Made by a program: the position numbers and the translations under genes. Source: a virus. From it: a DNA stretch of 27,703 nt. The notes beneath the pieces were generated by a model. That model saw nothing but the letters and a program-made list of their open reading frames with translations. It was not told the origin of the DNA and did not search any database. The DNA lies in the IMG/VR virus record IMGVR_UViG_3300007508_000034, positions 1-27,703 of that record. One strand, written 5' to 3'. This document shows positions 1-10,877 of this stretch, in pieces. The stretch's first letter is position 1. Each line of letters opens with the position of its first letter.

Positions 1-50
1 CCTTCTTCAAGTTCAACCTTCGTTTCTCTTATGTCGCTAAATTTCTTCAT
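1..50 (-). CDS. 5' end of a gene running off the window; possible capsid-targeted protein
   Basis: Only the first 16 codons are inside the window. The predicted N-terminus is MKKFSDIRETKVELEE. The ATG overlaps the stop of the preceding gene as ATGA, which suggests translational coupling at the end of the late operon. The start has M-x-x-F and then I-R-E followed by T, similar to the N-terminal tags seen on its upstream neighbours and to T4 gp21 cleavage sites ((I/L)-x-E). Nothing can be said about function from this fragment, and the tag match is weaker than in the genes at 2124-4648. Confidence 0.55.
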   Translation of the reverse strand, partial: MKKFSDIRETKVELEE

Positions 51-367
51 TTGTTTTTCTTCCACTGTGTAATTTTACGTTTCCACTGAGGTTTGTTCAT
101 TGCGCTCTCAGCATCCCTAATAGCCTGTATCTTATGAGATAAAATACCACCCTTCTCTACAATCTGACTGAAAGCCACACTAAAGTCGTCTTTCTTTGCT
201 CTTTTGCCTAAATCATCTAACTTCGAGGCCACATCTTTCTTCAATTGAGAAAGCAACATCGATCCAAAACCAGATATCATCACAGTTGGATCTTCTGGAT
301 TTTCGCTTCTAGGATCGATTGAAGCAACTGCTTCAATAAGATCTCTTAATTCTTGTTCTATATTCAT
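47..367 (-). CDS. Hypothetical protein, 106 aa, end of the late block
   Basis: The reading frame is open further upstream, but the first plausible start is the ATG at 367 (MNIEQELRDLIEA...), because earlier codons overlap the preceding gene. I do not recognise the family. The protein is charged and probably mostly helical, ending in a lysine-rich tail (QWKRKITQWKKNK). There is a perfect late-promoter element TATAAATA only 5 bases before the ATG and no convincing Shine-Dalgarno sequence at normal spacing. The start is therefore uncertain, or the message is nearly leaderless when made from that promoter. It lies just after the 143-aa tagged protein and overlaps the next gene by ATGA. Confidence 0.7.
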   Translation of the reverse strand: MNIEQELRDLIEAVASIDPRSENPEDPTVMISGFGSMLLSQLKKDVASKLDDLGKRAKKDDFSVAFSQIVEKGGILSHKIQAIRDAESAMNKPQWKRKITQWKKNK

Positions 368-372
368 AGTAT

Positions 373-380
373 TATTTATA
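373..380 (-). promoter_or_regulatory. T4-type late promoter element TATAAATA (unusually close to a start codon)
   Basis: The minus strand reads TATAAATA, identical to the T4 late -10 element recognised by gp55. It lies 5 bases upstream of the ATG at 367, so transcription would begin at or very near the start codon. It may serve genes further left, or it may be a chance match in AT-rich sequence. Confidence 0.4.
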
Positions 381-383
381 ATC

Positions 384-815
384 CTATCTTCCAACCACAC
401 TATTAACTGGTAATTTCTTGTCACCAAACTTAAAATCTTTCTTACGCATAACAGTTTTTGTAACAAGTTCCATCATCTTCGTTTTATGATTCCATTGAAT
501 AGCAACTGGCATATGAATCATTGTTGCATTATCCTTAATAACAGCTTCAATATCATCTACCGAATCAGCAACATTTTTTGCGTGAGTAGCGTATACAGCT
601 TTGAAGATTTGCTCTAATTCACAATATGAAATTTGTTGTTTGTTGCGCTTATCATTCACACGATCAAGAAAATGTCTTGTGAATTCAATATCAACGCCCA
701 ATTTATTGAAAATAGCATCAAGCGACTTCTCTAATTGATTTAAATCTTTTTTTGTTACTATATTATCATCTTTTGGGCAAAATTTCTCAAAAAGATGTTG
801 TTTAAATGACAACAT
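384..815 (-). CDS. Hypothetical late protein with capsid-targeting-like N-terminus, 143 aa
   Basis: The protein begins MLSFKQHLFEK. The pattern M-x-S-F-K-Q-x-L-x-E matches the tags of neighbouring genes. L-F-E followed by K fits the (I/L)-x-E rule of the T4 gp21 prohead protease, so residues after about 10 would be the mature protein. The rest is unrecognised: a helical charged N-terminal half, then a beta-rich C-terminal part (MIHMPVAIQWNHKTKMMELVTKTVMRKK). Its ATG overlaps the stop of the upstream nucleotidyltransferase as TAATG. Packaging in the virion is inferred from the N-terminal motif and the late promoter upstream of the operon. Confidence 0.8.
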   Translation of the reverse strand: MLSFKQHLFEKFCPKDDNIVTKKDLNQLEKSLDAIFNKLGVDIEFTRHFLDRVNDKRNKQQISYCELEQIFKAVYATHAKNVADSVDDIEAVIKDNATMIHMPVAIQWNHKTKMMELVTKTVMRKKDFKFGDKKLPVNSVVGR

Positions 816-1870
816 TACGCATACCTCGTTTTCTTATCTAGAACTTTTCTCAATTCTCTTGATGAAATGCCAACCATTTGTGCGGCAGTTGTTAGTGCTA
901 ATGATTTAGGATTAGTAATATATGATCCTGGAGTCTGAAATGCTTTTGGGTTTTTCTTATATTCACGTAACATTTCGTGATATAACTTTATTGCTTTTTT
1001 GTACTTATCTTTATGTAACATTCTTTTTACTTGATGAAGAGTTTTCTTAGGAAGCATTGCTTTAGTTATATTTTTTAATCCCATTGGATTTTCTGATAAC
1101 TCTATTTCTTCTTTAATGTTCATACCTTTGCGTACAGCGTTATAGATATCTTCAGCATCTTTCTCTGATGTACCTTTCGGCATACCATCTTTATATGATT
1201 CAAAATCTCCACTAGAAGCGTGTTTTCTCATATCAGTACCAGATACTCCTTTCACTCTTGCACCACCACCCTCGATCACTTCAAATTTATCAAAGTCATA
1301 TGACTTCTTAGGATCTTCGTGTTTGATATATGGACGAATTGCTTTCTCAAAGTCTTTAACTCTATCACCACCCACAACCATTGTAACATTTTTGAATCCT
1401 TTATCAGATAGATATCTTAAAGCATCAAACGCTGTCTTAACTTTACTATCTTTTACAATATTTGCTTTAGGGAAGAACTTCTTAAGGAACTTTGTCTTGT
1501 CGTTATATGTTAGTGGATTCTTCTTCGGATCGTTTGATTGTGAAGTGAAAATCATTGATATTCCACCACGCTTTTTACCCTCAGAAACAACAAAATCAAT
1601 CATTGCTTGATGACCCTTTGTGATTGGATTAAATCGTCCAAATGTAAATACAACGGTATCATTCTTTGATTCTGTAATATATTGTTTGAATGAATTCATA
1701 CTAGATTCCTTTATACTTAGCATCTTCTTTAGAATGCCTGTTATATATGCATAATCTTCTACGTGTCCTTCTTCCGCGGCAATAGCTTTTGCTTTCTGCC
1801 AGAGTCTTTCTATCTCTTCAATAGACTTTCCAGACTTTTTAGCGAATGATTGGACTACGTTATTAGGCAT
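815..1870 (-). CDS. Cytidylyltransferase-fold nucleotidyltransferase (NMN adenylyltransferase-like) with internal capsid tag
   Basis: The 351-residue product has three parts. Residues 1-55 form a small helical domain (VVQSFAKKSGKSIEEIERLW, ending YAYITGILKKML). Residues 58-68 (MNSFKQYITES) look like the capsid-targeting tag with an I-T-E cleavage site. From residue 70 there is a nucleotidyltransferase domain with GRFNPITKGH (78-87), the (G/T)xFxPxTxGH signature, and VSGTDMR (209-215), the ISxTxxR motif. A lysine-rich C-terminal domain follows. Such enzymes join a nucleotide to NMN, pantetheine phosphate or similar; the substrate cannot be told here. ATG 1870 overlaps the previous stop (TAATG). 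An internal ATG at 1699 has a strong AAGGAA ribosome site, so two products are possible. Confidence 0.85.
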   Translation of the reverse strand: MPNNVVQSFAKKSGKSIEEIERLWQKAKAIAAEEGHVEDYAYITGILKKMLSIKESSMNSFKQYITESKNDTVVFTFGRFNPITKGHQAMIDFVVSEGKKRGGISMIFTSQSNDPKKNPLTYNDKTKFLKKFFPKANIVKDSKVKTAFDALRYLSDKGFKNVTMVVGGDRVKDFEKAIRPYIKHEDPKKSYDFDKFEVIEGGGARVKGVSGTDMRKHASSGDFESYKDGMPKGTSEKDAEDIYNAVRKGMNIKEEIELSENPMGLKNITKAMLPKKTLHQVKRMLHKDKYKKAIKLYHEMLREYKKNPKAFQTPGSYITNPKSLALTTAAQMVGISSRELRKVLDKKTRYA

Positions 1871-2121
1871 TAGTCTTTAATTCCGTGATTTAGTCTTAAT
1901 CGAGTATTAGCAGCATGTGACAAAAACTTGATTGGTGGTTTAGCATCACGTACTGCAATTAATGCTTCAACACTAAATGTATCAAGTAACTTTTCAATCT
2001 TCTTCCAAGCTGGACTCATTGGATTAACAGTTTCTAATGTTGAGAATTTCTTTCTCAATATATCTAATTGCTTCTTAGTCATTGGTCCAACTGACTCATT
2101 AAATTCTCTAAATGTTTTCAT
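1870..2121 (-). CDS. Small late protein with capsid-tag-like N-terminus, 83 aa
   Basis: The N-terminus MKTFREFNESVGPM closely resembles the T4 internal-protein tag (MKTYQEFIAEA). The residue three before the putative cut is F rather than I or L, so processing is less certain than for its neighbours. The remainder is a short basic helical protein (TKKQLDILRKKFSTLETV..., ending NTRLRLNHGIKD) that I cannot assign. It sits between the ligase-like and nucleotidyltransferase genes, two bases after the upstream stop, with GGGGATAG as a plausible ribosome site. A DNA-associated internal head protein would fit, but that is inference. Confidence 0.8.
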   Translation of the reverse strand: MKTFREFNESVGPMTKKQLDILRKKFSTLETVNPMSPAWKKIEKLLDTFSVEALIAVRDAKPPIKFLSHAANTRLRLNHGIKD

Positions 2122-2123
2122 TT

Positions 2124-3353
2124 CTATCCCCAGTTTTTTATAGCATTGAAGTTATTTTTACTAAACTCAAGTCTATTAACTAACTTAACAGCTTTATTTG
2201 ACATATGATCAATTGCAACAAATCCTTCTGGACCAGTTACTTCATATCCACTACTTGTCTTAATAAATGCTGGTATTTTATTTACCTTTTCCATCTTCTT
2301 GATCAATAGCAATTTAATATCTGCAACTATATCGTGCCACTCAAGAGCATATGCAAGTGTACCACCAATCTTTCTGTTACTATTAATTTCACTAATTAGA
2401 TCATCAAGCACTTTCTGTTTCTTCGCTTTACCCTTTTCTGACTTCAACTTATCAATCATCGGTTTATAACGTTTTCTCAAGAAGTCAATAAATCCACCAA
2501 TTGCTTTCTGCTTACCACTAAATTTCTTCCCTTGCTTAGTAAGATCATTAATATAAATCTTCAAATTATATGCAATATCAGTCTTACCAAATAGAGTTTT
2601 TAATGCGCTCTTATCAAGTTTATTTAACTCTGAATAAGCAAGTTTTATTTTATTTTGAATAGTAGTCATTTCATCTACAGTAAGAGAAGCAGTTCCAGAT
2701 ACATCACTAAAGTTTGTATCAGTAAACCATACATCTTTAGATTTCTTTAATCCACTAATATTTATCTTGAATTGAGCTTCAAGATCGGCTATAGTGTCGC
2801 CCTTATAAGTAGTATGCCACACAACACCCACTTTCGCACCCAATACCTGTTTAGCTAAATCTTGATCAGCAGGTATAGCGTATGTGATTGTGTTAGGAGT
2901 AAATGTAACATACGAATCACCATCTATTTTTTCTTTCTTTATGTCTGATGGTATAAACATAAAATCACCTTGTATGATGCCCTTGATTCCCATCTTAGGG
3001 AATTCTTTGAGAGCAACTTTTAGTTTTTCTGCTAGTGACGGTGCGTGACCGTGATTAGCATCAACATCAGCAGAAGTATAATTTAATTTAGGTGTCTTAT
3101 TAAATACTGCTTTTGTACCAACGAAAAATTTACCATTTTCTGGATTGATTCCAGCAACTACAGATGGTGCGCCATCAACTTTAGCTTGAATATTAACAGC
3201 TTTCTTTGCGTGACCTTCTAATGAATGTGCCACATCTTCAAGAAATTTAAGAGCTGAAAGTCCACCATCATAACCTTGATCGAATATAGCATCTTCAAGG
3301 TGTTCAAGATGAGTTAGTTTGGCTTCTGTTAAATATGTCTTAAATGTTTTCAT
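2124..3353 (-). CDS. Ligase-like (KxDG) protein with capsid-targeting tag, DUF6267-like
   Basis: The 409-aa protein starts MKTFKTYLTEAKLTHLEHLE. Residues 1-10 match the T4 internal-protein targeting sequence, and L-T-E followed by A is a good gp21 cleavage site. After it comes KVDGAPS (58-64), resembling nucleotidyltransferase motif I of DNA/RNA ligases and capping enzymes, where the lysine is AMP- or GMP-modified. FFVGTKAVF (about 76-84), IIQGDFMF (126-133) and VGVVWHT (175-181) sit where later ligase motifs would fall. From memory this resembles the DUF6267 family found in cyanophage-type T4-like phages; that match is not verified. The C-terminal part is basic and helical. The start overlaps the previous stop (ATGA). 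Substrate and reaction are unknown. Confidence 0.82.
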   Translation of the reverse strand: MKTFKTYLTEAKLTHLEHLEDAIFDQGYDGGLSALKFLEDVAHSLEGHAKKAVNIQAKVDGAPSVVAGINPENGKFFVGTKAVFNKTPKLNYTSADVDANHGHAPSLAEKLKVALKEFPKMGIKGIIQGDFMFIPSDIKKEKIDGDSYVTFTPNTITYAIPADQDLAKQVLGAKVGVVWHTTYKGDTIADLEAQFKINISGLKKSKDVWFTDTNFSDVSGTASLTVDEMTTIQNKIKLAYSELNKLDKSALKTLFGKTDIAYNLKIYINDLTKQGKKFSGKQKAIGGFIDFLRKRYKPMIDKLKSEKGKAKKQKVLDDLISEINSNRKIGGTLAYALEWHDIVADIKLLLIKKMEKVNKIPAFIKTSSGYEVTGPEGFVAIDHMSNKAVKLVNRLEFSKNNFNAIKNWG

Positions 3354-4648
3354 TTTTTTAATTTCATCTTAAATCCGAGTTTATTTCCACCAGCATAACC
3401 AGCCCATCCAAAATCAAATTCAACATCTCTAAATCTATTACTCTGAAAATTCATCGTACTACTTTTTACATCAACGTTTACTTGAATAAGTGTTACTTGT
3501 CTAGCAACGTTTGTCAATGATGTTTTAATCTCTTTATCATTATTAAGAATTTTCCAGAGTGTTTCTCCTAGAGGTGATATCACAAGTCTCACTTTATCAG
3601 AACCATACTTAATTCTATCTGTCAACTTAGTGTTTAAAGTATCCCAAAATGGTTGTAATAGAGTGATTAATTCTTCTTCCTCTTTTGTACCTAACCACAC
3701 TTTGAGACTATCAAGAGTAATATCTTTATAACTTACTCCCATAATATCTCCGAGTTTCTTGATACCAGGAGTTTCCATATATTGATTTAATTTAAACATA
3801 CCTTCTCTCATTGGATTCTCTCTAACAAGATTGAAGATAACTAATGATTTTTCAGCACTATGATCAGCATTTGCAGTTTTGGCACGATTCTTGATAGCAT
3901 CTATGATATTTTGAATTGTTACTTTTCCACCTCCACCAGATTTGACAGAAATTGGATAGTGAATCCCCATTCTCACACCATAGAAGTCAATTAGCTTCTC
4001 ATTTGATGCTGTTGGGAAAAAGGATTCTTTGAATCCCATTGTATTCATACCCCAAATAGCTGATAGGATCTCACCAAAATCAGCAGAGACTTTAGCCAAG
4101 TCTTTAGATGTAAATTTATGAGTATCTTTCACTGAAATCTTAGACGATTTAGTATTTGCTAACTTCATTAAATCAATTAATGCATTAGCAGTGGATTCGT
4201 CATATTTTGATTTAAGAGTGGTTGATACTCTGTTAATAATATCTTTCTTTGATAATTGTAATCCAGCTAAACCAAGACTATCTGGAGATAGATCTTTGTT
4301 ATTGAATAACTGTCCACCAGCAGTACTCTTTGAGATATTATTATTCACCCAATGAATAGATGTTCCTACCGGAATTGTGCCTACTTTTTTAGTTGTTTTG
4401 ATAACGAATGTATCAAACTTACTTGAAATGCTCTTATTAGAGTCTTTAATAGAGAAATCTAAATTTTTGAAGAATCTTTCGATAGTTTTTTGATCACCAT
4501 CGACAGGAAAACGTATATGATAACCACCACGATTGCTATCAGTAACTTTGATATGCAGACCAGTGATGGTTTTCTTTAAATATGATTTTAATGAGGAGAC
4601 AGACTTATCAACCTTTGCCTCCTTCAAGTATGAACGAAATCCTTGCAT
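3350..4648 (-). CDS. Tagged late protein with possible PD-(D/E)XK nuclease core, 432 aa
   Basis: This is the first gene of the late block. It starts MQGFRSYLKEAKV, another tag ending in L-K-E followed by A. The middle contains a conserved-looking run: GEILSAIWG (E193), LIDFYG (D221) and YPISVKSGGGGK (K236). The order E, D, (S/E)-x-K after a hydrophobic strand is what a PD-(D/E)XK nuclease core looks like; this is a pattern judgement and not a proven family match. The C-terminal 150 residues are beta-rich and end with a glycine-rich, lysine-rich segment. The late promoter TATAAATA lies 34 bases upstream. If packaged, it could act on host DNA at entry. Confidence 0.8.
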   Translation of the reverse strand: MQGFRSYLKEAKVDKSVSSLKSYLKKTITGLHIKVTDSNRGGYHIRFPVDGDQKTIERFFKNLDFSIKDSNKSISSKFDTFVIKTTKKVGTIPVGTSIHWVNNNISKSTAGGQLFNNKDLSPDSLGLAGLQLSKKDIINRVSTTLKSKYDESTANALIDLMKLANTKSSKISVKDTHKFTSKDLAKVSADFGEILSAIWGMNTMGFKESFFPTASNEKLIDFYGVRMGIHYPISVKSGGGGKVTIQNIIDAIKNRAKTANADHSAEKSLVIFNLVRENPMREGMFKLNQYMETPGIKKLGDIMGVSYKDITLDSLKVWLGTKEEEELITLLQPFWDTLNTKLTDRIKYGSDKVRLVISPLGETLWKILNNDKEIKTSLTNVARQVTLIQVNVDVKSSTMNFQSNRFRDVEFDFGWAGYAGGNKLGFKMKLKK

Positions 4649-4681: not shown

Positions 4682-4689
4682 TATTTATA
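4682..4689 (-). promoter_or_regulatory. T4-type late promoter TATAAATA for the tagged-protein operon
   Basis: A perfect minus-strand TATAAATA sits 34 bases upstream of the ATG at 4648. That spacing leaves room for a normal leader. It marks the change from early/middle genes (gp41 and the small protein) to late genes, and it would be read by RNA polymerase carrying gp55, which is encoded at 25961-26533. Confidence 0.75.
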
Positions 4690-4691
4690 AT

Positions 4692-4859
4692 TTATCTAAC
4701 GACACTAAATTTTCTTGCAACAGCTTCAATATCAAGTTCATTTTCTTTTTTATTCACTAGCACCCAAAAATCACTCATATTTTCTGCTTCTTTCACAACT
4801 TCAAATGATTTTAAAATCTCATCTTCTATATACTCTACAACAGCTTTATATTTTGTCAT
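4692..4859 (-). CDS. Small acidic hypothetical protein, 55 aa
   Basis: The ATG overlaps the gp41 stop codon as ATGA, and the frame is open to a TAA at 4694-4692. The product begins MTKYKAVVEYIEDEILKSFE and ends EAVARKFSVVR. It is helical and acidic and contains one tryptophan-bearing segment (MSDFWVLVNKKENELDI). I do not recognise it. The strict coupling to gp41, and its position before the late promoter, indicate co-expression with replication genes. Confidence 0.7.
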   Translation of the reverse strand: MTKYKAVVEYIEDEILKSFEVVKEAENMSDFWVLVNKKENELDIEAVARKFSVVR

Positions 4860-6244
4860 ATCTGGAACTCCTTGAATGCTTTTTTCTTCTCTTTATCTTT
4901 GGGTTTATTAAATTGTGATGTTTCAACAACTTGATCTGGCATAATTAAATCATCTTGAGCATCTTCCTCTACATTGTACCAACGCATTTTAGCTTTATCA
5001 ATACCAACAACGAATCTTTTATTCTTGTTTAGATCAGAATATCGATTCTTCAATTGCTTAATCATAACTTGATTTAGTTCAGCTAATTCTTCTGTTGAGA
5101 TCAGTGCAAGCATCATATCAGCAGTAGCTGGAAGTCCAAATGATTCTGAAGTATCCTCCAAACCAACATCTGTATTTGAATATCCAGAACGTGTCGTTTG
5201 TGTCGCAGAAAATACAGGAACATTATATTCAACAGCCATTCCACGCAACTCTTCTGCAATTGCTTTCACATACGTATAACTATTAACACTAGATGATCCA
5301 CCAGCGAATCTAGCGGACGCACATATATTTAGATAGTCAATAAAGATAATATCAGGAACAAAGTTCTTTTTCATTGATAGTTCTTTAAGGAGTGCTTTAA
5401 AGTGACCTGAGTGAGCAGAAGCGGTTGGATACTCCTTAACAATTAACTTACCAGTGGTGTTTGCCCTAATACGTTCTATTTTCTTCTCATATGCGCTTCT
5501 AGAGAGCCTCTCAAGATCATTTAGAGTAGTATTCAATAGATTAGCATCAATACGCTCTGCGATTCTCTCCTCTGCCATCTCCATTGTAATATACAACACA
5601 TTATTTCCTTGCGTCAAGCAATTTGAAGCAATATGAGTCATTGCTAATGTCTTACCGACACCTGGACCAGCTAGAAAAATATTAAGTGTTTTCTTCGGAA
5701 CGCCACCCTTCGTAATCTCGTTTAGATAATCAATATCAAACTCAACCCTCTCTTCTGTCTTATGATAGAAGTCAAAACGTTCATCAGCATTCTCTAGAAA
5801 ATCGTGTCCAATATGAGTGTCGAATGATACTGCTAGTGCATCAGATAGTAGGTCTGGTATGGCAGATTTTGTCTTTTTACCAGTCTTATCATCAATTATG
5901 GTAATTGATTCCATAATTGCGTTATATACAGCCTTATCTCTACAGAACTTCTCCGTAGAATCCATCAACCATTCTAGATCAGAATGCTCATCTTCTAGAG
6001 TAGAAATCTCTTCAACTGCTTGAGTATATTGCGTGGAAGAAATATCTTCACGCTCATCAATAGCAATAATAAGCGACTCTTTTGTTGGTCTATTATTATA
6101 CTTATTGATGAACGTAGATATTTCTTCGAATATTACTTTTTCAACAGTATCGTGAAAATAATCTGGTTTTAGAAAATGAGAAACCTTTCTAGCAAAATCA
6201 TCATTGAATACAAGATTTTGTATAATTGTTCTTTCAAGTGTCAT
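4856..6244 (-). CDS. 41: Replicative DNA helicase, T4 gp41-like (DnaB family)
   Basis: The 462-aa product matches the length of T4 gp41 (475 aa). It is a hexameric 5'-3' helicase of the DnaB/RecA fold that unwinds the fork and works with primase. The N-terminal helical domain covers about residues 1-150. The Walker A motif is GPGVGKT (193-199) in the context LNIFLAGPGVGKTLAMTH. Walker B is DIIFIDYLN (298-306). ATQTTRSG follows at about 346-353, as in DnaB sensor/arginine regions. No intein interrupts it. The ATG lies within the 3' end of the 84-aa gene upstream, and the stop overlaps the next small gene. Confidence 0.95.
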   Translation of the reverse strand: MTLERTIIQNLVFNDDFARKVSHFLKPDYFHDTVEKVIFEEISTFINKYNNRPTKESLIIAIDEREDISSTQYTQAVEEISTLEDEHSDLEWLMDSTEKFCRDKAVYNAIMESITIIDDKTGKKTKSAIPDLLSDALAVSFDTHIGHDFLENADERFDFYHKTEERVEFDIDYLNEITKGGVPKKTLNIFLAGPGVGKTLAMTHIASNCLTQGNNVLYITMEMAEERIAERIDANLLNTTLNDLERLSRSAYEKKIERIRANTTGKLIVKEYPTASAHSGHFKALLKELSMKKNFVPDIIFIDYLNICASARFAGGSSSVNSYTYVKAIAEELRGMAVEYNVPVFSATQTTRSGYSNTDVGLEDTSESFGLPATADMMLALISTEELAELNQVMIKQLKNRYSDLNKNKRFVVGIDKAKMRWYNVEEDAQDDLIMPDQVVETSQFNKPKDKEKKKAFKEFQI

Positions 6245-6488
6245 TAAATTCCTTCAGTGCTGTTTCCAATACGTTAATCAAATATTGACTAACTTCATCT
6301 GATACATCATCTATTGTAACATTATTTGGATTTTCAATCAAGTCCATTTCGAAATTCATTGGAACATTTCCAGATTCATCAGTTGATTCTTCATCGATAT
6401 TAATATCACCTACTGATACAATTGTACCATCTTCCAACTTAATATAAAACACATCAGTATCTTTATCACTATTTACAATTTTAGTCAT
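6234..6488 (-). CDS. Small acidic hypothetical protein, 84 aa
   Basis: The product begins MTKIVNSDKDTDVFYIKLED. It is strongly acidic (many D and E, almost no R) and has a short beta-rich start followed by a C-terminal helix. I chose the ATG at 6488 because AGAGG lies 9 bases upstream; another in-frame ATG at 6494 is too close to that site. The start lies inside the end of the UvsX C-terminal gene, and the gene overlaps gp41 by 11 bases, so it belongs to the uvsX-41 transcription unit. Function is unknown. Confidence 0.72.
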   Translation of the reverse strand: MTKIVNSDKDTDVFYIKLEDGTIVSVGDINIDEESTDESGNVPMNFEMDLIENPNNVTIDDVSDEVSQYLINVLETALKEFNDT

Positions 6489-6987
6489 TTTCATTATCCT
6501 CTAAATTATGCTCAACATATCCGATTGTATATCGTTCTTCTACCCACTGAGGGAAATCTGTATCTTGAAGAATTGGTGCCCAGAATTCAGCAGTATTAGT
6601 ATCCTTTGCTCTCCAACTCTTATCATCTTCTACAGATGGACGTGTATACCAACCAACTTTCGGTTTAGTAACGTGACCAGATTCTAGCGCAACATCAAGC
6701 AATCCAGACCACTTATTAATACCACCCTTGAATGATACTACAATAGGAATCTTCGACTTCTCACGTACAAAACGACTCTTCTCAACATTAATATTAAATG
6801 AATATCCATCAAGTTCTTTACCAGTTTTCTCTTGTGAACGTCCAATGATCCACACATTGTCGGAACTATACATTACGCCTGTATTATGTGTAACAACACC
6901 ATTTTCAAGAATATAATGTTCATTATCTTTTACTGACAAATCGTATACTGGTTTTCTACCCACTTTCTTTATTTTTACAATCTTCAT
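6481..6987 (-). CDS. uvsX: UvsX C-terminal half fused to a split-intein C-fragment
   Basis: The 168-aa product has two parts. Residues 1-35 are an intein C-fragment: a short start, VYDLSV, then HYILENGVVTHN, which is the terminal block with the penultimate His and the splice-site Asn. Residues 36-168 begin TGVMYSSDNVWIIGRSQ and are the C-terminal extein of the RecA-like recombinase UvsX. The +1 residue is Thr. The reading frame has its own ribosome site (CGGAGAAG) inside the nested small gene. Trans-splicing with the product of 7095-8048 would give a UvsX of about 343 aa. The extein ends with an acidic tail (EHNLEDNEND), typical of UvsX. Confidence 0.92.
   Translation of the reverse strand: MKIVKIKKVGRKPVYDLSVKDNEHYILENGVVTHNTGVMYSSDNVWIIGRSQEKTGKELDGYSFNINVEKSRFVREKSKIPIVVSFKGGINKWSGLLDVALESGHVTKPKVGWYTRPSVEDDKSWRAKDTNTAEFWAPILQDTDFPQWVEERYTIGYVEHNLEDNEND
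6883..6987 (-). other. Split intein C-fragment (35 residues)
   Basis: The fragment starts at its own ATG (MKIVKIKKVGRKPVYDLSV) and ends HYILENGVVTHN, matching intein splicing blocks F and G, followed by Thr as the +1 nucleophile. Its length of about 35 residues is that of natural split-intein C-fragments. It has no homing endonuclease domain. Confidence 0.9.
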
Positions 6988-7123
6988 TGTATATCTTCTC
7001 CGCTAGTTTATCAACATCACTTTCATAAGTGAATTTTCTTTCAATTAAATATTCGGCTTTTCTATAATAACTTAATTGTTGTTGTAGTGATAATTCATTC
7101 CATTTTGTGTTTACAATTTTCAT
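6956..7123 (-). CDS. Small gene nested between the two uvsX/intein halves, 55 aa
   Basis: The frame runs from ATG 7123 to TAG 6956. The product begins MKIVNTKWNELSLQQQLSYY and continues RKAEYLIERKFTYE. Its start overlaps the last 29 bases of the intein N-fragment gene, and its end overlaps the first 32 bases of the C-fragment gene. AGGTGG precedes the ATG at good spacing. The composition (Q/Y/K/E-rich helix, YLIE motif) looks like real small phage proteins and not intein sequence. Function is unknown. It is either a passenger of the intein split or a gene that happened to arrive there. Confidence 0.6.
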   Translation of the reverse strand: MKIVNTKWNELSLQQQLSYYRKAEYLIERKFTYESDVDKLAEKIYNEDCKNKESG

Positions 7124-8048
7124 TATGCCACCTATTCAAATTACCCATATTTGTCACATCACTTCCAACAATAAGATCTTTTGCTTCGACCCATCCACCA
7201 TCGATAAGAAATTTATGTTTATCGGAACAAGTTACTTTATAACCATCTTCAAATTCAATTTCATAACATTCAGGATTACCTTCTTCTAAAGTATCAGGAT
7301 TCCATATATGAGTAACTTTCTTCTCACCATCTAATGTAATAACTTTTTCACCAACATTAAAATCTTGAATTTCTTTTAACCCATCTTTAGTTTGTAATTT
7401 TGTTCCCTCAATAACACAACCACCAGACACAACAGCTTTACTAAACATTTCTTGTGTCTGGTATGTATGATTAACAGCAACCATAGGAATATCGTGTGTA
7501 GTCAAATATGGGGTTACCATACGGAATAGACTCTTGATCTGCTTTGCTCTTGTCATATCAGCTACAGACTTTTCATTAAGAGCATCTTCAACTTCTTTCT
7601 TTGATGCTAGATTACCAATAGAATCAACAAAGATAAACACCTTATCTTTCTTACCAATCTCTTTCATTTTCTTCATAATATCAAACTTCAATTCTTCAAT
7701 ATCCATTACTGGTGTATGTAGAACTCGATTCGTATCTACACCAAATGAAGAGAAGTAGTTTTCTGGTGTACCAAACTCACTATCATAAAATAGACAAACA
7801 GCTTCTTCATACTTATTCAGAAATGCTCCCATTAGTAATACACCAAATGCTGTTTTAAAATGCTTTGAAGGTCCAGCTAGTACAGTTAGTCCAGACGTTA
7901 ATCCACCATCAAGTTTTCCAGATAATGCTACATTAATCATTGGTACACTTGTTGGTACAACTTCTTTATCTTTATAGAGAGTTGATTCTGACAATACTGT
8001 ACTTTTGATTGATGCCGCTTTCTGTAAACGATCCATTAATAAACTCAT
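7095..8048 (-). CDS. uvsX: UvsX N-terminal half (RecA-like recombinase) fused to a split-intein N-fragment
   Basis: UvsX coats single-stranded DNA and performs strand exchange in T4-type recombination and replication. Residues 1-210 are the N-extein, with Walker A GPSKHFKT (59-66), Walker B VFIFVDSIG (D142) and the conserved AVNHTYQTQEMF segment. The extein stops after VVSGG, in the DNA-binding loop 2 region, and residue C211 starts the intein. Blocks A and B are visible (CVIEGTKLQTKDGLKEI; VTCSDKHKFLI). The frame ends 107 residues into the intein. AAGGAGAAATA precedes the ATG. The gene follows the polymerase C-half by 9 bases. Without trans-splicing this half would lack the C-terminal ATPase-core segment. 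Confidence 0.93.
   Translation of the reverse strand: MSLLMDRLQKAASIKSTVLSESTLYKDKEVVPTSVPMINVALSGKLDGGLTSGLTVLAGPSKHFKTAFGVLLMGAFLNKYEEAVCLFYDSEFGTPENYFSSFGVDTNRVLHTPVMDIEELKFDIMKKMKEIGKKDKVFIFVDSIGNLASKKEVEDALNEKSVADMTRAKQIKSLFRMVTPYLTTHDIPMVAVNHTYQTQEMFSKAVVSGGCVIEGTKLQTKDGLKEIQDFNVGEKVITLDGEKKVTHIWNPDTLEEGNPECYEIEFEDGYKVTCSDKHKFLIDGGWVEAKDLIVGSDVTNMGNLNRWHNENCKHKME
7098..7418 (-). other. Split intein N-fragment (about 107 residues)
   Basis: The fragment begins with Cys directly after UvsX VVSGG. It has CVIEGTKLQTKDG (block A) and GYKVTCSDKHKF (block B-like, with the T..H arrangement shifted to S..H). After EAKDLIVGSDV the sequence degenerates to a short hydrophilic tail ending CKHKME. 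No endonuclease domain is present. It pairs with the C-fragment at 6883-6987. Confidence 0.9.
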
Positions 8049-8057
8049 TATTTCTCC

Positions 8058-9386
8058 TTATCCAAAAAAATCTTCTAATGAAGCAGTTACTTCGTGCTTC
8101 CAATTAATCACATCTAAAATCGTTTTCAACGGTTCTAGGAATGTTTTCTCAAACATTTTATCATAATCTACATACTTATGCAAGTCAAATTCCTTGGGAA
8201 TTCCACCCTGAAATGATATTACATTTTCGTGTAGTGGGTTGGGTTCTTTAAGATAGATAAATTTAATCTTCTCACCTTCTTGTACTTGAGGTACTGTCTT
8301 TTGTAGCTTATGTTCACGAATCAAACGATTGAATGTAAGTGTACCTCTAACGTGAATTGGTGTTCCTTTGATATATCCATCACCATTTCTATACTTCTCA
8401 AGTCCATTCACACCACGAGGAAATGCTATGTCTTGTGGTTCTTGCTCATTGAAGTGTTTTCTAAACTCATCAATATAATCAATGACTGTATCATTGTCAG
8501 TATTTAGAATCAACTCAACTGATTTCTTTAGCTTCTTGCGAACCACTTCTGGTGTGCTTGATTTGACAATCTCTAATCCCATAACCTTCATCTTGGGTTC
8601 AGCATATCGTACACCTTCATTATCATATACATTCAATGCGTAACGCTTCTTAGCTGTCCAGATAGCTTTATCAGCAATTACCTCACGCTCCATAAACATC
8701 TTCTGTTCATAGGCATTCATATAATCAGCTAATTCTTGATAGCATTCATCAATATAAGGTTCAATCTTCTCTTTGGCTATCTTATCAAGAAAATCTACAA
8801 TCTTTGTCTTTTCCTCGGGAGTATTTCTCCTGTCACCAAAAATCTTGTGAATAAGATTGCCAAGGCGAATGTAGCTAGAATCTGTGTCAATTGCAACAAC
8901 ATAGTCATAATCCTCCGTTTTTAATAGACGATTGAAGTATATATTTAGTTTATTTGCGATCCACTTAATAGACAATTGTCCAGAAAGTGTGATAGCTTCT
9001 GCGTTTGCTAGATTATAGTAACGGAAATATTGGTTACCAATCGCCCCGTAAGCAGAATTTAACTGGATCTTACGAGCCATCTGAAAGTTATTGTACTTAG
9101 CGATATCATTACCAACATCTTCACCATCTTCTTTCTTCTGTTGAGCATCAAGCATTTTCTTTTTAAATGCCTTACGCTCTAAATACAACTTATTCATTAA
9201 CTCAGGTAAGAATCCTCTCTTATCCCTACGATACAATGTACCGTTAGGTACAATTGACACGTTTGCAATCTTTAATGCATCCAAATCAACATTACGTGAT
9301 ACCAATGCATCAACATTAACTTGGGAAGATAATTCTTTTAATCTCTCTAAAGCATCAATCTCTTTTCTAATTTCTTCTTGAGTCAT
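8058..9386 (-). CDS. 43: DNA polymerase gp43, C-terminal half (family B palm, fingers, thumb)
   Basis: This gene carries the polymerase part that follows motif A. Motif B is RKIQLNSAYGAIGNQ, motif C is VAIDTDSSYI (the catalytic aspartates) and the primer-contact motif is AKKRYALN. The C-terminus ASLEDFFG looks like the clamp-binding tail. I place the start at ATG 9386 (MTQEEIRKEIDALERLKEL), 10 bases after the HNH stop; the frame is open to a GTG at 9431, but that has no ribosome site. Together with 9609-10877 the length is close to T4 gp43 (898 aa). The two halves are in the same frame relative to each other but are separated by stops and the HNH gene, so they should assemble as two polypeptides. 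Confidence 0.93.
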   Translation of the reverse strand: MTQEEIRKEIDALERLKELSSQVNVDALVSRNVDLDALKIANVSIVPNGTLYRRDKRGFLPELMNKLYLERKAFKKKMLDAQQKKEDGEDVGNDIAKYNNFQMARKIQLNSAYGAIGNQYFRYYNLANAEAITLSGQLSIKWIANKLNIYFNRLLKTEDYDYVVAIDTDSSYIRLGNLIHKIFGDRRNTPEEKTKIVDFLDKIAKEKIEPYIDECYQELADYMNAYEQKMFMEREVIADKAIWTAKKRYALNVYDNEGVRYAEPKMKVMGLEIVKSSTPEVVRKKLKKSVELILNTDNDTVIDYIDEFRKHFNEQEPQDIAFPRGVNGLEKYRNGDGYIKGTPIHVRGTLTFNRLIREHKLQKTVPQVQEGEKIKFIYLKEPNPLHENVISFQGGIPKEFDLHKYVDYDKMFEKTFLEPLKTILDVINWKHEVTASLEDFFG

Positions 9387-9396
9387 TTGACTTGCA

Positions 9397-9600
9397 TCAT
9401 TCCACACGATTATGTTTTCTCCTATTTTCACTCATAGTTAATATTTGAAGGTTATCTTGATGATGGATGCCACCCTTTGAAATCGGTATTATATGGTCAA
9501 CTTCGTGAGGTATTCCAGTATCAACAGATAACATCTTTGCTTTAATATAAAACTCATTTATTTTATCATAATCAGCATCTGGAGTCAACGCATTTTTCAT
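9397..9600 (-). CDS. HNH endonuclease inside the split polymerase gene, 67 aa
   Basis: The product contains the HNH core EVDHIIPISKGGIHHQDNLQ followed by the final N (SENRRKHNR). The zinc-binding cysteines of some HNH proteins are absent. It resembles the C-terminal portion of free-standing phage HNH homing endonucleases, so it may be a shortened copy. It begins 8 bases after the stop of the polymerase N-half and ends 10 bases before the start of the C-half, and it is clearly the element that separates them. There is no room for a group I intron core. No good ribosome site precedes it, so it may be made poorly, by re-initiation or by frameshifting. Confidence 0.85.
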   Translation of the reverse strand: MKNALTPDADYDKINEFYIKAKMLSVDTGIPHEVDHIIPISKGGIHHQDNLQILTMSENRRKHNRVE

Positions 9601-9608
9601 ATTACAAT

Positions 9609-10877
9609 TTATAGGAGTTTTTTTAAGTATTCTATTCTATTATCAATATCTTTATGTTCAACAATAGTTTCTGCTGATATCGAATATTGCATAATCAAAT
9701 GGGGATATAGACTAGCCAAGTCAAATGATACAACCCAATCGTGAAAACCACGAATAGGATCTTTAACAAATGCTCCAGCATATTTATCACCACCAGTATG
9801 CTGTTGAGGTGGAATCACTAGATTATCTTTTCTTAGATAGTTATAGATAATCGCATCCCAAGTCTTTACTGGAGAGAATACATCATTAAATGTAATATGA
9901 GCATCATAGGCCATAGTGAATACAAGTTCGAGCATCTTCATTTTATCATCTAAACGCTGAACAATCTCAACATCTTTAATGTTATATTCAATAAACTTCT
10001 GATAGTTGACTCTTGCTAAATTATGAAGTGAGCCTTCCTCTTCATATGACAATTTTCTATCACCTAACTCAACATATGCAATATGATCAAGTTTATAACT
10101 CTCTTGCGCTGAGTATGTAAACTTCTTATAGAGTGCTAGATAATCGATTACAGCTACTCCAGCAACATCATATTTGATCTGCTCTTTACCAAACTGCATC
10201 TTAACTTTACGTTCATTTACCCTCTTCCAAGGAGAAAATTCTTTAGCAGTAGCAACACTAAAAATACGAGCATAACGATTGACTAGATATGGAATATCAA
10301 ATCCTTCAACATTCCATCCTGTAATTACATTGGGTGTAGTTACTTTCCATTGAGCCAGAAAGTCTTTGAGTAGTTCAGATTCTTTACCAAACTGTCGATA
10401 CTCAACATCAGATCGATCAGTTTTAAAATCATCAATTCCCCATACAATATACTTCTCTGTGATACTATCTCGAATTGTGATAGCATTGATAATTCCCTTA
10501 GCTTCTTCTGGCTTAGGGAATCCTTCTTTAGAATCAACCTCAATATCAATATTCCAAATACGAATCTGGTTAATATCAAAATCAATATCACCAGAATAAT
10601 CTTTAGATATGTATTGAAGAGTATAATTATTCATACCATAGACTTTGAAGCCTTCAACATCTTCATAACGCTTCATAAAGTCTCTAGTCTCTTTAATAGA
10701 ACCAGGTTTAATAGCTTCTACATAGTCACCTTCTAATGTCTTGAATTTAGACTTTTTAGAACTTGGAATAAACATTGTTGGAGAGAATTCATTTCTCTCT
10801 TCAAACGGTACACCATCATTGATACCTCGTACTAGAACATAATTGCCTAGCACATCCACATTTGTATAAAACTTCAT
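9609..10877 (-). CDS. 43: DNA polymerase gp43, N-terminal half (exonuclease and motif A)
   Basis: The 422-aa product covers the N-terminal and 3'-5' proofreading domains of a family B polymerase. Exo I is IWNIDIEVDS, Exo II is NVITGWNVEGFDIPYLV and Exo III is YNIKDVEIV. Polymerase motif A DLASLYP is at about 386-392. The protein stops about 30 residues later, after IDNRIEYLKKLL, so catalytic aspartates of motifs A and C are on different polypeptides. AGAGGTAAGAG precedes the ATG, and a promoter lies just upstream (10904-10932). The last codons contain a seven-A run that would fit a -1 slippery site into the HNH frame. Confidence 0.94.
   Translation of the reverse strand: MKFYTNVDVLGNYVLVRGINDGVPFEERNEFSPTMFIPSSKKSKFKTLEGDYVEAIKPGSIKETRDFMKRYEDVEGFKVYGMNNYTLQYISKDYSGDIDFDINQIRIWNIDIEVDSKEGFPKPEEAKGIINAITIRDSITEKYIVWGIDDFKTDRSDVEYRQFGKESELLKDFLAQWKVTTPNVITGWNVEGFDIPYLVNRYARIFSVATAKEFSPWKRVNERKVKMQFGKEQIKYDVAGVAVIDYLALYKKFTYSAQESYKLDHIAYVELGDRKLSYEEEGSLHNLARVNYQKFIEYNIKDVEIVQRLDDKMKMLELVFTMAYDAHITFNDVFSPVKTWDAIIYNYLRKDNLVIPPQQHTGGDKYAGAFVKDPIRGFHDWVVSFDLASLYPHLIMQYSISAETIVEHKDIDNRIEYLKKLL

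Follow-up and report, generated by a model that had tools for sequence, protein, structure and literature searches.

Why should consecutive genes for unrelated enzymes in a T4-like virus open with nearly the same ten residues? The question is raised by one end of IMG/VR virus record IMGVR_UViG_3300007508_000034 (positions 1 to 27,703, herein referred to as the window), a 27.7-kb virus fragment that is the sole record of its genome, carries T4-like replication genes on the minus strand and belongs to a marine T4-like (Kyanoviridae-like) myovirus; the Kyanoviridae are a dominant group of marine T4-like phages. An earlier note on this DNA had proposed that the genes behind the gp41 helicase form a late operon of enzymes whose common N-terminal tag directs them into the capsid, as in the internal proteins (IPs) of T4. 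We find that the tag is of the T4 capsid targeting sequence (CTS) type: it keeps positions 4, 7, 8 and 10, it stands on unrelated families and on separate products of a split gene, and tagged homologues have been detected in virions. Packaging by a CTS-type signal, trimming by the prohead protease gp21 and probable delivery of the cargo enzymes with the DNA is, in our judgment, very likely the explanation.

After the gp41 helicase the gene order is a 55-residue open reading frame (ORF), then a 432-residue gene, a 409-residue gene, an 83-residue gene, a 351-residue ORF, a 143-residue gene, a 107-residue gene and a gene cut by the window edge. The features are as follows, a slash marking the predicted cut.

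4856-6244, minus strand: gp41 helicase, the upstream neighbour of the cassette.
4682-4689, minus strand: late-promoter-like TATAAATA, 34 nt ahead of the start codon that opens the cassette.
3350-4648, minus strand: 432-residue protein, candidate PD-(D/E)xK nuclease; tag MQGFRSYLKE/AK, codons 4619-4648.
2124-3353, minus strand: 409-residue DUF6267 protein (PF19782), predicted ligase-type fold; tag MKTFKTYLTE/AK, codons 3324-3353.
1870-2121, minus strand: 83-residue protein; variant tag MKTFREFNES.
815-1699, minus strand: 294-residue nucleotidylyltransferase (cytidylyltransferase/NMNAT-like), probably from Met58 of the ORF at 815-1870; tag MNSFKQYITE/SK, codons 1670-1699.
1700-1870, minus strand: 57-residue in-frame extension of the nucleotidyltransferase ORF, beginning MPNNVVQSFAKKSGKS, its own ATG overlapping the preceding stop.
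384-815, minus strand: 143-residue protein (phrog_23027 / phrog_14518); tag MLSFKQHLFE/KF, codons 786-815.
47-370, minus strand: 107-residue gene without the tag, in the operon.
1-50, minus strand: start of the edge-truncated gene, MKKFSDIRETKVELEE; variant tag.

The T4 CTS comprises the first ten residues of the protein, of which positions 4 and 7 govern targeting and positions 8 and 10 govern processing (PMC9026906). All six tag-like N-termini that had been read in the cassette were located on the minus strand: MQGFRSYLKEAK (4648), MKTFKTYLTEAK (3353), MKTFREFNESV (2121), MNSFKQYITESK (1699), MLSFKQHLFEKF (815) and MKKFSDIRETK (50). The form M-x-x-F-x-x-[YH]-[IL]-x-E begins four of the six intact cassette genes (those of 432, 409 and 143 residues and the nucleotidyltransferase read from 1699), and the same four proteins carry Phe4 with Tyr or His at position 7 (the T4 targeting positions) and Ile or Leu at position 8 with Glu10 (the processing positions). 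A strict pattern, ^M..[FYW]..[FYHILMWN][ILVMF].E, matches four of the six cassette genes and none of the 34 other genes of the window (Fisher test, 1.6e-4, a value qualified by the pattern having been composed after the tags were seen). In both structure models the tag is disordered (pLDDT below 50). The remaining two, MKTFREFNE of the 83-residue protein and MKKFSDIRE of the truncated gene, are one residue shorter, fail the strict pattern and deviate at the processing positions in spacing or residue, the former having Phe where Ile or Leu stands in the canonical tag; its start resembles T4 IPI (MKTFKEF) and the S-CREM2 virion protein gp15 (MNFSEFNES), and Phage C48C1 has MKKFTEIREARR in the same cassette, comparable with the variant tag of the truncated gene. 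The tags are thus present as described, but they do not run through strictly consecutive genes, the untagged 107-residue gene lying between the 143-residue and the truncated gene.

To place the tag in a wider setting we used 59 related viral contigs, in which genes were called and then clustered with their first 20 residues removed; counts relative to gp41 refer to the 38 contigs that also hold gp41. The strict pattern begins 81 of 345 genes after gp41, in 16 families, and none of the 156 genes up to it (Fisher test, 4e-15, although the contigs are related and non-independent, such that the count of families carries more weight than this value). A count based on distance, by which 7 of 260 'upstream' genes were tagged, was replaced by the gp41-relative count, because the stretch from gp41 to DUF6267 itself contains some of the cassette genes. 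Clustering of the proteins minus their first 20 residues yields 21 tagged families, with clearly unrelated folds among them; within the 432-residue family, 12 of 16 members carry a strict-pattern tag. It is conceivable that the cassette genes are diverged duplicates that have retained an ancestral N-terminus, as they are adjacent and some of their families have domains in common, but common descent of this kind must contend with the 21 families and their unrelated folds, with fission products that gained or kept a tag of their own, and with tagged and untagged homologues that differ at the same boundary. Paralogy was rejected as a candidate on the strength of the clustering, and we give common descent almost no credence.

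The tag can also be recognized without reference to the pattern. To avoid circularity, a scoring matrix was built solely from the N-termini of DUF6267 proteins, which were picked by homology (0.1% shuffle threshold, 6.9); after Met1, most information in these N-termini falls on residues 4, 10, 2 and 8, and residue 7 is Tyr, Phe or His in 22 of 27. With this matrix the T4 IPII/IPIII propeptide scores 13.35 (shuffle P 3e-5) and that of T4 IPI 6.16, just under the threshold, and 45 further tagged genes in 16 other families are found after gp41, again against 0 of 156 up to it. Among 74 T4 genes tested, the strict pattern picks ipII and ipIII only. In the nearly whole genome of C48C1, in Melnitz-3 and in HTVC008M, the high scorers are confined to the accessory block; the single exception, in C48C1, is a spurious upstream start. 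The shuffle P values of the cassette proteins against the matrix are 0.003 (432 residues), <1e-5 (nucleotidyltransferase), 1.3e-4 (143 residues), 0.004 (83 residues), 0.04 (truncated gene) and 0.84 (107 residues).

Such specificity bears on whether the shared N-terminus might serve some other end (translation initiation, a common partner or membrane attachment late in infection) and resemble a CTS by convergence. Lysine-rich, aromatic N-termini are short and could arise often, and the tag sits within an operon of close translational coupling; however, what is kept are specific side chains at positions 4, 7, 8 and 10, beyond anything that codons or charge would require, and the neighbouring replication genes lack the tag. 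The [IL]-x-E motif, moreover, appears again in the propeptides of head proteins of the relatives: the major capsid protein gp23 has FLSE/A, FLTE/T, LLTE/A or FLAE/A close to where its mature domain begins, and the prohead protease gp21 has YITE/AK or similar early in its N-terminus, both corresponding to the second half of the tag. Together with the identity of the top scorers in S-CREM2, all of them virion proteins (see below), this leaves convergence on another function as a very improbable account.

A CTS-type sorting signal should behave as a module, and the relatives bear this out. The 143-residue domain is, in some of them, the fused C-terminal part of a tagged nucleotidyltransferase: at locus L016 the nucleotidyltransferase core, a C-domain and the 143-residue domain form one protein with one tag, and the one-protein form at L008, L009 and L013 also starts tag-like. 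In the window, L012 and L014 the same nucleotidyltransferase and 143-residue domains are two proteins, each of them tagged, and at L011 the second protein of the split nucleotidyltransferase starts tag-like, MKKLNNFKEYLE. As judged from these sequences, the tag follows the polypeptide rather than the domain, as a sorting signal should. Tagged and untagged DUF6267 proteins differ at precisely this point, the N-terminus being MKTFKTYLTE/AKLTHLEHLED in the window and M-AKNTHLEHLED, M-SKNTHLEHLED and M-AKNTHLEHLED in the cyanophages S-SZBM1, P-HM2 and S-CAM9, respectively. Homologues lacking the tag, which the earlier note had regarded as telling against packaging, therefore do exist in part, yet the first residue of these cyanophage proteins coincides with, or lies within a few positions of, the predicted mature residue, consistent with a removable tag. 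The untagged DUF6267 protein of S-SZBM1 is absent from the S-SZBM1 virion list (PMC9146016).

Published mass-spectrometry data place the nucleotidyltransferase in purified virions of S-SM1 (PMC3037559), S-SZBM1 (PMC9146016), S-SCSM1 (PMC9602691) and S-CREM2 (PMC10665884). In all four phages the virion-detected enzyme is tagged: MKKFSAFLNEAE in S-SM1, MRFRQFIIEAV (one residue shorter) in S-SZBM1, MKSFLQFLKEAA in S-SCSM1 and MKNFSSFLTEAD in S-CREM2. When the 189 annotated coding sequences of S-CREM2 (without the 42-68 kb stretch) were ranked with the DUF6267 matrix, the five best scorers were all virion proteins (the nucleotidyltransferase, an APH-like kinase, gp13, gp136 and a SAM hydrolase), and all four sequences above the threshold are virion proteins (Fisher test, 0.004). 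In S-SCSM1, 2 of 292 ORFs exceed the threshold and one is a virion protein. The S-CRM01 kinase, which we take to be the virion protein cited in PMC10665884, starts MISFDQFLSEKK.

Two side observations concern these genomes. In S-SCSM1 (L085, 44215-44535) a small ORF amid head and tail genes bears a strong tag, MKTFKQFMSESV; the virion proteins reported for this phage do not include it. In S-CREM2 (L082, 7704-10313, minus strand) a tag-like stretch, LRFASFMAEAA, lies about 17 residues into gp12, a virion protein annotated as Cas9, after MTSRWSNWSTGSDKKP; S-CRM01 g128 starts like gp12, MRQSRWAKWSRGTEVKLSLDSFIKEAA.

Several points weigh against packaging by the tag. Within the cassette, the 432- and 83-residue tags fall under the 0.1% matrix threshold, and the canonical spacing is absent from the 83-residue and truncated-gene tags. 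No head gene falls within the window, and gp21 is accordingly seen in the relatives alone. The virion evidence, as analysed here, comes from cyanophage homologues and would apply to the window phage and its close relatives by homology. Of the two S-SCSM1 ORFs over the threshold, one is missing from the virion list, and the papers that report these proteins in virions warn of possible carry-over from lysates (including PMC9602691). Finally, several virion proteins encoded at the same loci lack the tag (gp139 and gp136 of S-SZBM1; gp89, gp90 and gp92 of S-SCSM1), and thus the tag is not the only way into the head.

With these points set against the evidence above, we propose that a late-expressed cargo operon would equip unrelated enzymes with a ten-residue, CTS-equivalent N-terminus, which in the window phage would bring them into the prohead core; there gp21 would probably cleave behind Glu10 to release the mature form of each enzyme within the head, and the cargo would probably enter the host alongside the DNA, as in T4. 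The likely cargo, namely an NMNAT/cytidylyltransferase-like enzyme, a ligase-type DUF6267 protein and a possible nuclease, may form an early nucleic-acid or cofactor processing set.

The nucleotidyltransferase named in the earlier note is borne out by PF01467 (38.7 bits vs a cut-off of 21; motifs TKGH and SGTDMR). Its KxDG ligase-like protein likewise stands: the 409-residue protein matches DUF6267 (PF19782; Pfam E 1.3e-107; 360.8 bits vs a gathering cut-off of 27), and across 31 sequences K58-x-D60-G61, Q128/D130, H180, E376-G377 and K390 are invariant, giving motifs I (KxDG), III (QGD), IIIa, IV (EG) and V (K) in the canonical ligase order. Nearly all of the top 50 structural matches of its model are RNA or DNA ligases (Naegleria RNA ligase, Z 8.8 over 184 residues at 3.7 A; T4 Rnl2, Z 7.2; T4 Rnl1, Z 7.0); Foldseek, used by itself, gave no significant match to the model. 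That DUF6267 is an RNA/DNA-ligase-type covalent nucleotidyltransferase is hence supported, by motifs and predicted structure, but unproven. One PHROG covers both DUF6267 and the nucleotidyltransferase, and the DUF6267 protein of S-PM2 is 591 residues long, which suggests fusions and joint action.

The 'possible nuclease' fares less well. The 432-residue family, whose relatives were drawn from loci fetched with DUF6267, has invariant E193, D221 and S234-V235-K236, but the best Foldseek match of the model, the HinP1I restriction enzyme, is not significant (E 0.02), and neither a second aligner nor Pfam confirmed the HinP1I/PD-(D/E)xK match. Against Pfam and PHROGs the 432-residue protein gave weak chance matches only and no function, a direct scan of viral contigs with it found nothing, and profile searches of PDB sequences with the 432-residue and DUF6267 families returned chance matches only; we regard a PD-(D/E)xK nuclease as a guess. 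Among the tagged proteins of the relatives are a zeta-toxin-like P-loop kinase and a HAD protein with a match to a polynucleotide-kinase PHROG. At L041 (1650-3902) we also note a tagged nucleotidyltransferase of 750 residues that bears a DUF5824 domain farther into the chain, a large multidomain cargo.

The tag could, alternatively, target these proteins to a head in which they act as core filler, in DNA condensation or in head maturation, without reaching the host as working enzymes. Core proteins have such an assembly role in T4, the T4 internal proteins are largely dispensable, and several of the tagged families are small, lysine-rich proteins. Yet the catalytic motifs of the tagged cargo are intact (TxGH in the nucleotidyltransferases, KxDG/EG/K in DUF6267, the P-loop zeta-toxin-like kinase, the HAD phosphatase and, in S-CREM2, a SAM hydrolase and an APH-like kinase). 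Fillers need no conserved active sites, and we accordingly hold a purely internal role to be unlikely.

The proposed packaging and delivery of enzymes by a CTS-type tag can be compared with known systems. T4 IPI, IPII and IPIII have the same ten-residue N-terminal peptide, with aromatic residues at 4 and 7, Ile or Leu at 8 and Glu at 10, and they too are unrelated proteins with a common tag, late expression and a prohead protease (here in the relatives); they differ in that the T4 cargo consists of three small basic proteins, whereas here proteins with enzyme folds are among the cargo of an operon behind gp41, and at least 16 tagged families occur across the relatives. The cyanophage virion cytidylyltransferase/NMNAT proteins and kinases (S-SM1, S-SZBM1, S-SCSM1, S-CREM2 and S-CRM01) include a homologous nucleotidyltransferase with the same tag, in particles, and at a syntenic locus in S-SM1 and S-SZBM1. 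In contrast to our account, their authors noted the proteins without mention of a targeting signal in the excerpts consulted, and the cyanophage DUF6267 proteins examined are untagged, whereas those of the window and its close relatives are tagged. The ATP-dependent RNA/DNA ligases (T4 Rnl1, T4 Rnl2 and Naegleria RNA ligase) resemble DUF6267 in motif order and predicted fold, from which it differs by a long helical insertion (about residues 226-355) between motifs IIIa and IV, with Z of 7-9. The T4 Alt ADP-ribosyltransferase is likewise a phage enzyme that travels in the capsid, is cleaved by gp21 and reaches the host, but its propeptide, MELITELFDE, scores -7.0 with the tag matrix.

Packaging of the cytidylyltransferase in cyanophages is already known; a paper linking it to a CTS was not found in our search, outside which subscription papers lay, and of the 15 papers in that search with the phrase 'capsid targeting sequence', none of those listed deals with a marine phage. 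Virion cytidylyltransferases, kinases and a SAM hydrolase are met repeatedly in cyanophage proteomics, the authors leaving cargo or contamination undecided, and a sorting signal supplies both a mechanism and a test for that question. The tag also makes it possible to read the cargo of marine T4-like phages directly from their genomes, which number in the thousands, carries an engineered T4 packaging tag over to a far broader range of phages, and gives DUF6267, which is widespread in T4-like cyanophages and has no known function, its first hypothesis, that of a packaged ligase-type enzyme. A bolder reading, which we consider possible though doubtful, is that the T4-type tag serves the Kyanoviridae in general as a freely mobile address for delivery, and that the post-gp41 cassette is an effector array that would stock the capsid with a kit for nucleic-acid and NAD repair (NMNAT-like nucleotidyltransferase, ligase-like DUF6267, kinase, HAD phosphatase and nuclease). 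The kit would work within minutes of the start of infection, plausibly to counter host defences that cleave tRNA or deplete NAD. If this were true, the tag alone would predict the injected proteins of each phage.

Two further details of the cassette concern a gene start and the promoter. The nucleotidyltransferase tag had been called internal. All but a few of about 50 homologues align from residue 54-58 of the 351-residue ORF onward, and a ribosome site, AAGGA, lies just upstream of Met58 (codon at 1699); on these two grounds we take 1699 as the probable true start, such that the tag is present as described but very probably marks the real N-terminus. The 57-residue extension that precedes it (1700-1870, minus strand; MPNNVVQSFAKKSGKSIEEIERLWQKAKAIAAEEGHVEDYAYITGILKKMLSIKESS) has a coupled ATG of its own, at which translation might also start to yield an untargeted form; no second copy of the extension was found in related loci. 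As for the promoter, TATAAATA shows no excess in the window (3 copies vs 4.5 expected), and its count was rejected as proof of late expression. Its position, by contrast, is maintained: nearly all close relatives have it 30-43 nt ahead of the cassette's first gene, it stands upstream of about 10% of other genes, and it is this positional conservation that supports late expression of the cassette.

The layout is found in other phages. Pelagibacter phage HTVC008M and Methylophilales phage Melnitz have gp41 followed by an accessory block with DUF6267 and the nucleotidyltransferase, as in the window; cyanophages keep this order in outline, and in Phage C48C1 the accessory block lies apart from gp41. 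Further along the minus strand of the window, UvsX is encoded by two ORFs (6481-6987 and 7095-8048) with a 55-residue ORF between them, the first ending N-intein-like (CVIEGTKLQTKDGLKEIQDF...) and the second starting C-intein-like (MKIVKIKKVGRKPVYDLSVKDNEHYILENGVVTHN), and from its sequence the pair looks like a naturally split intein. The DNA polymerase (8058-10877, minus strand) is likewise divided into two ORFs (9609-10877 and 8058-9431), which flank an HNH-like ORF (9397-9600), an arrangement expected where an intron or intein carries a homing endonuclease.

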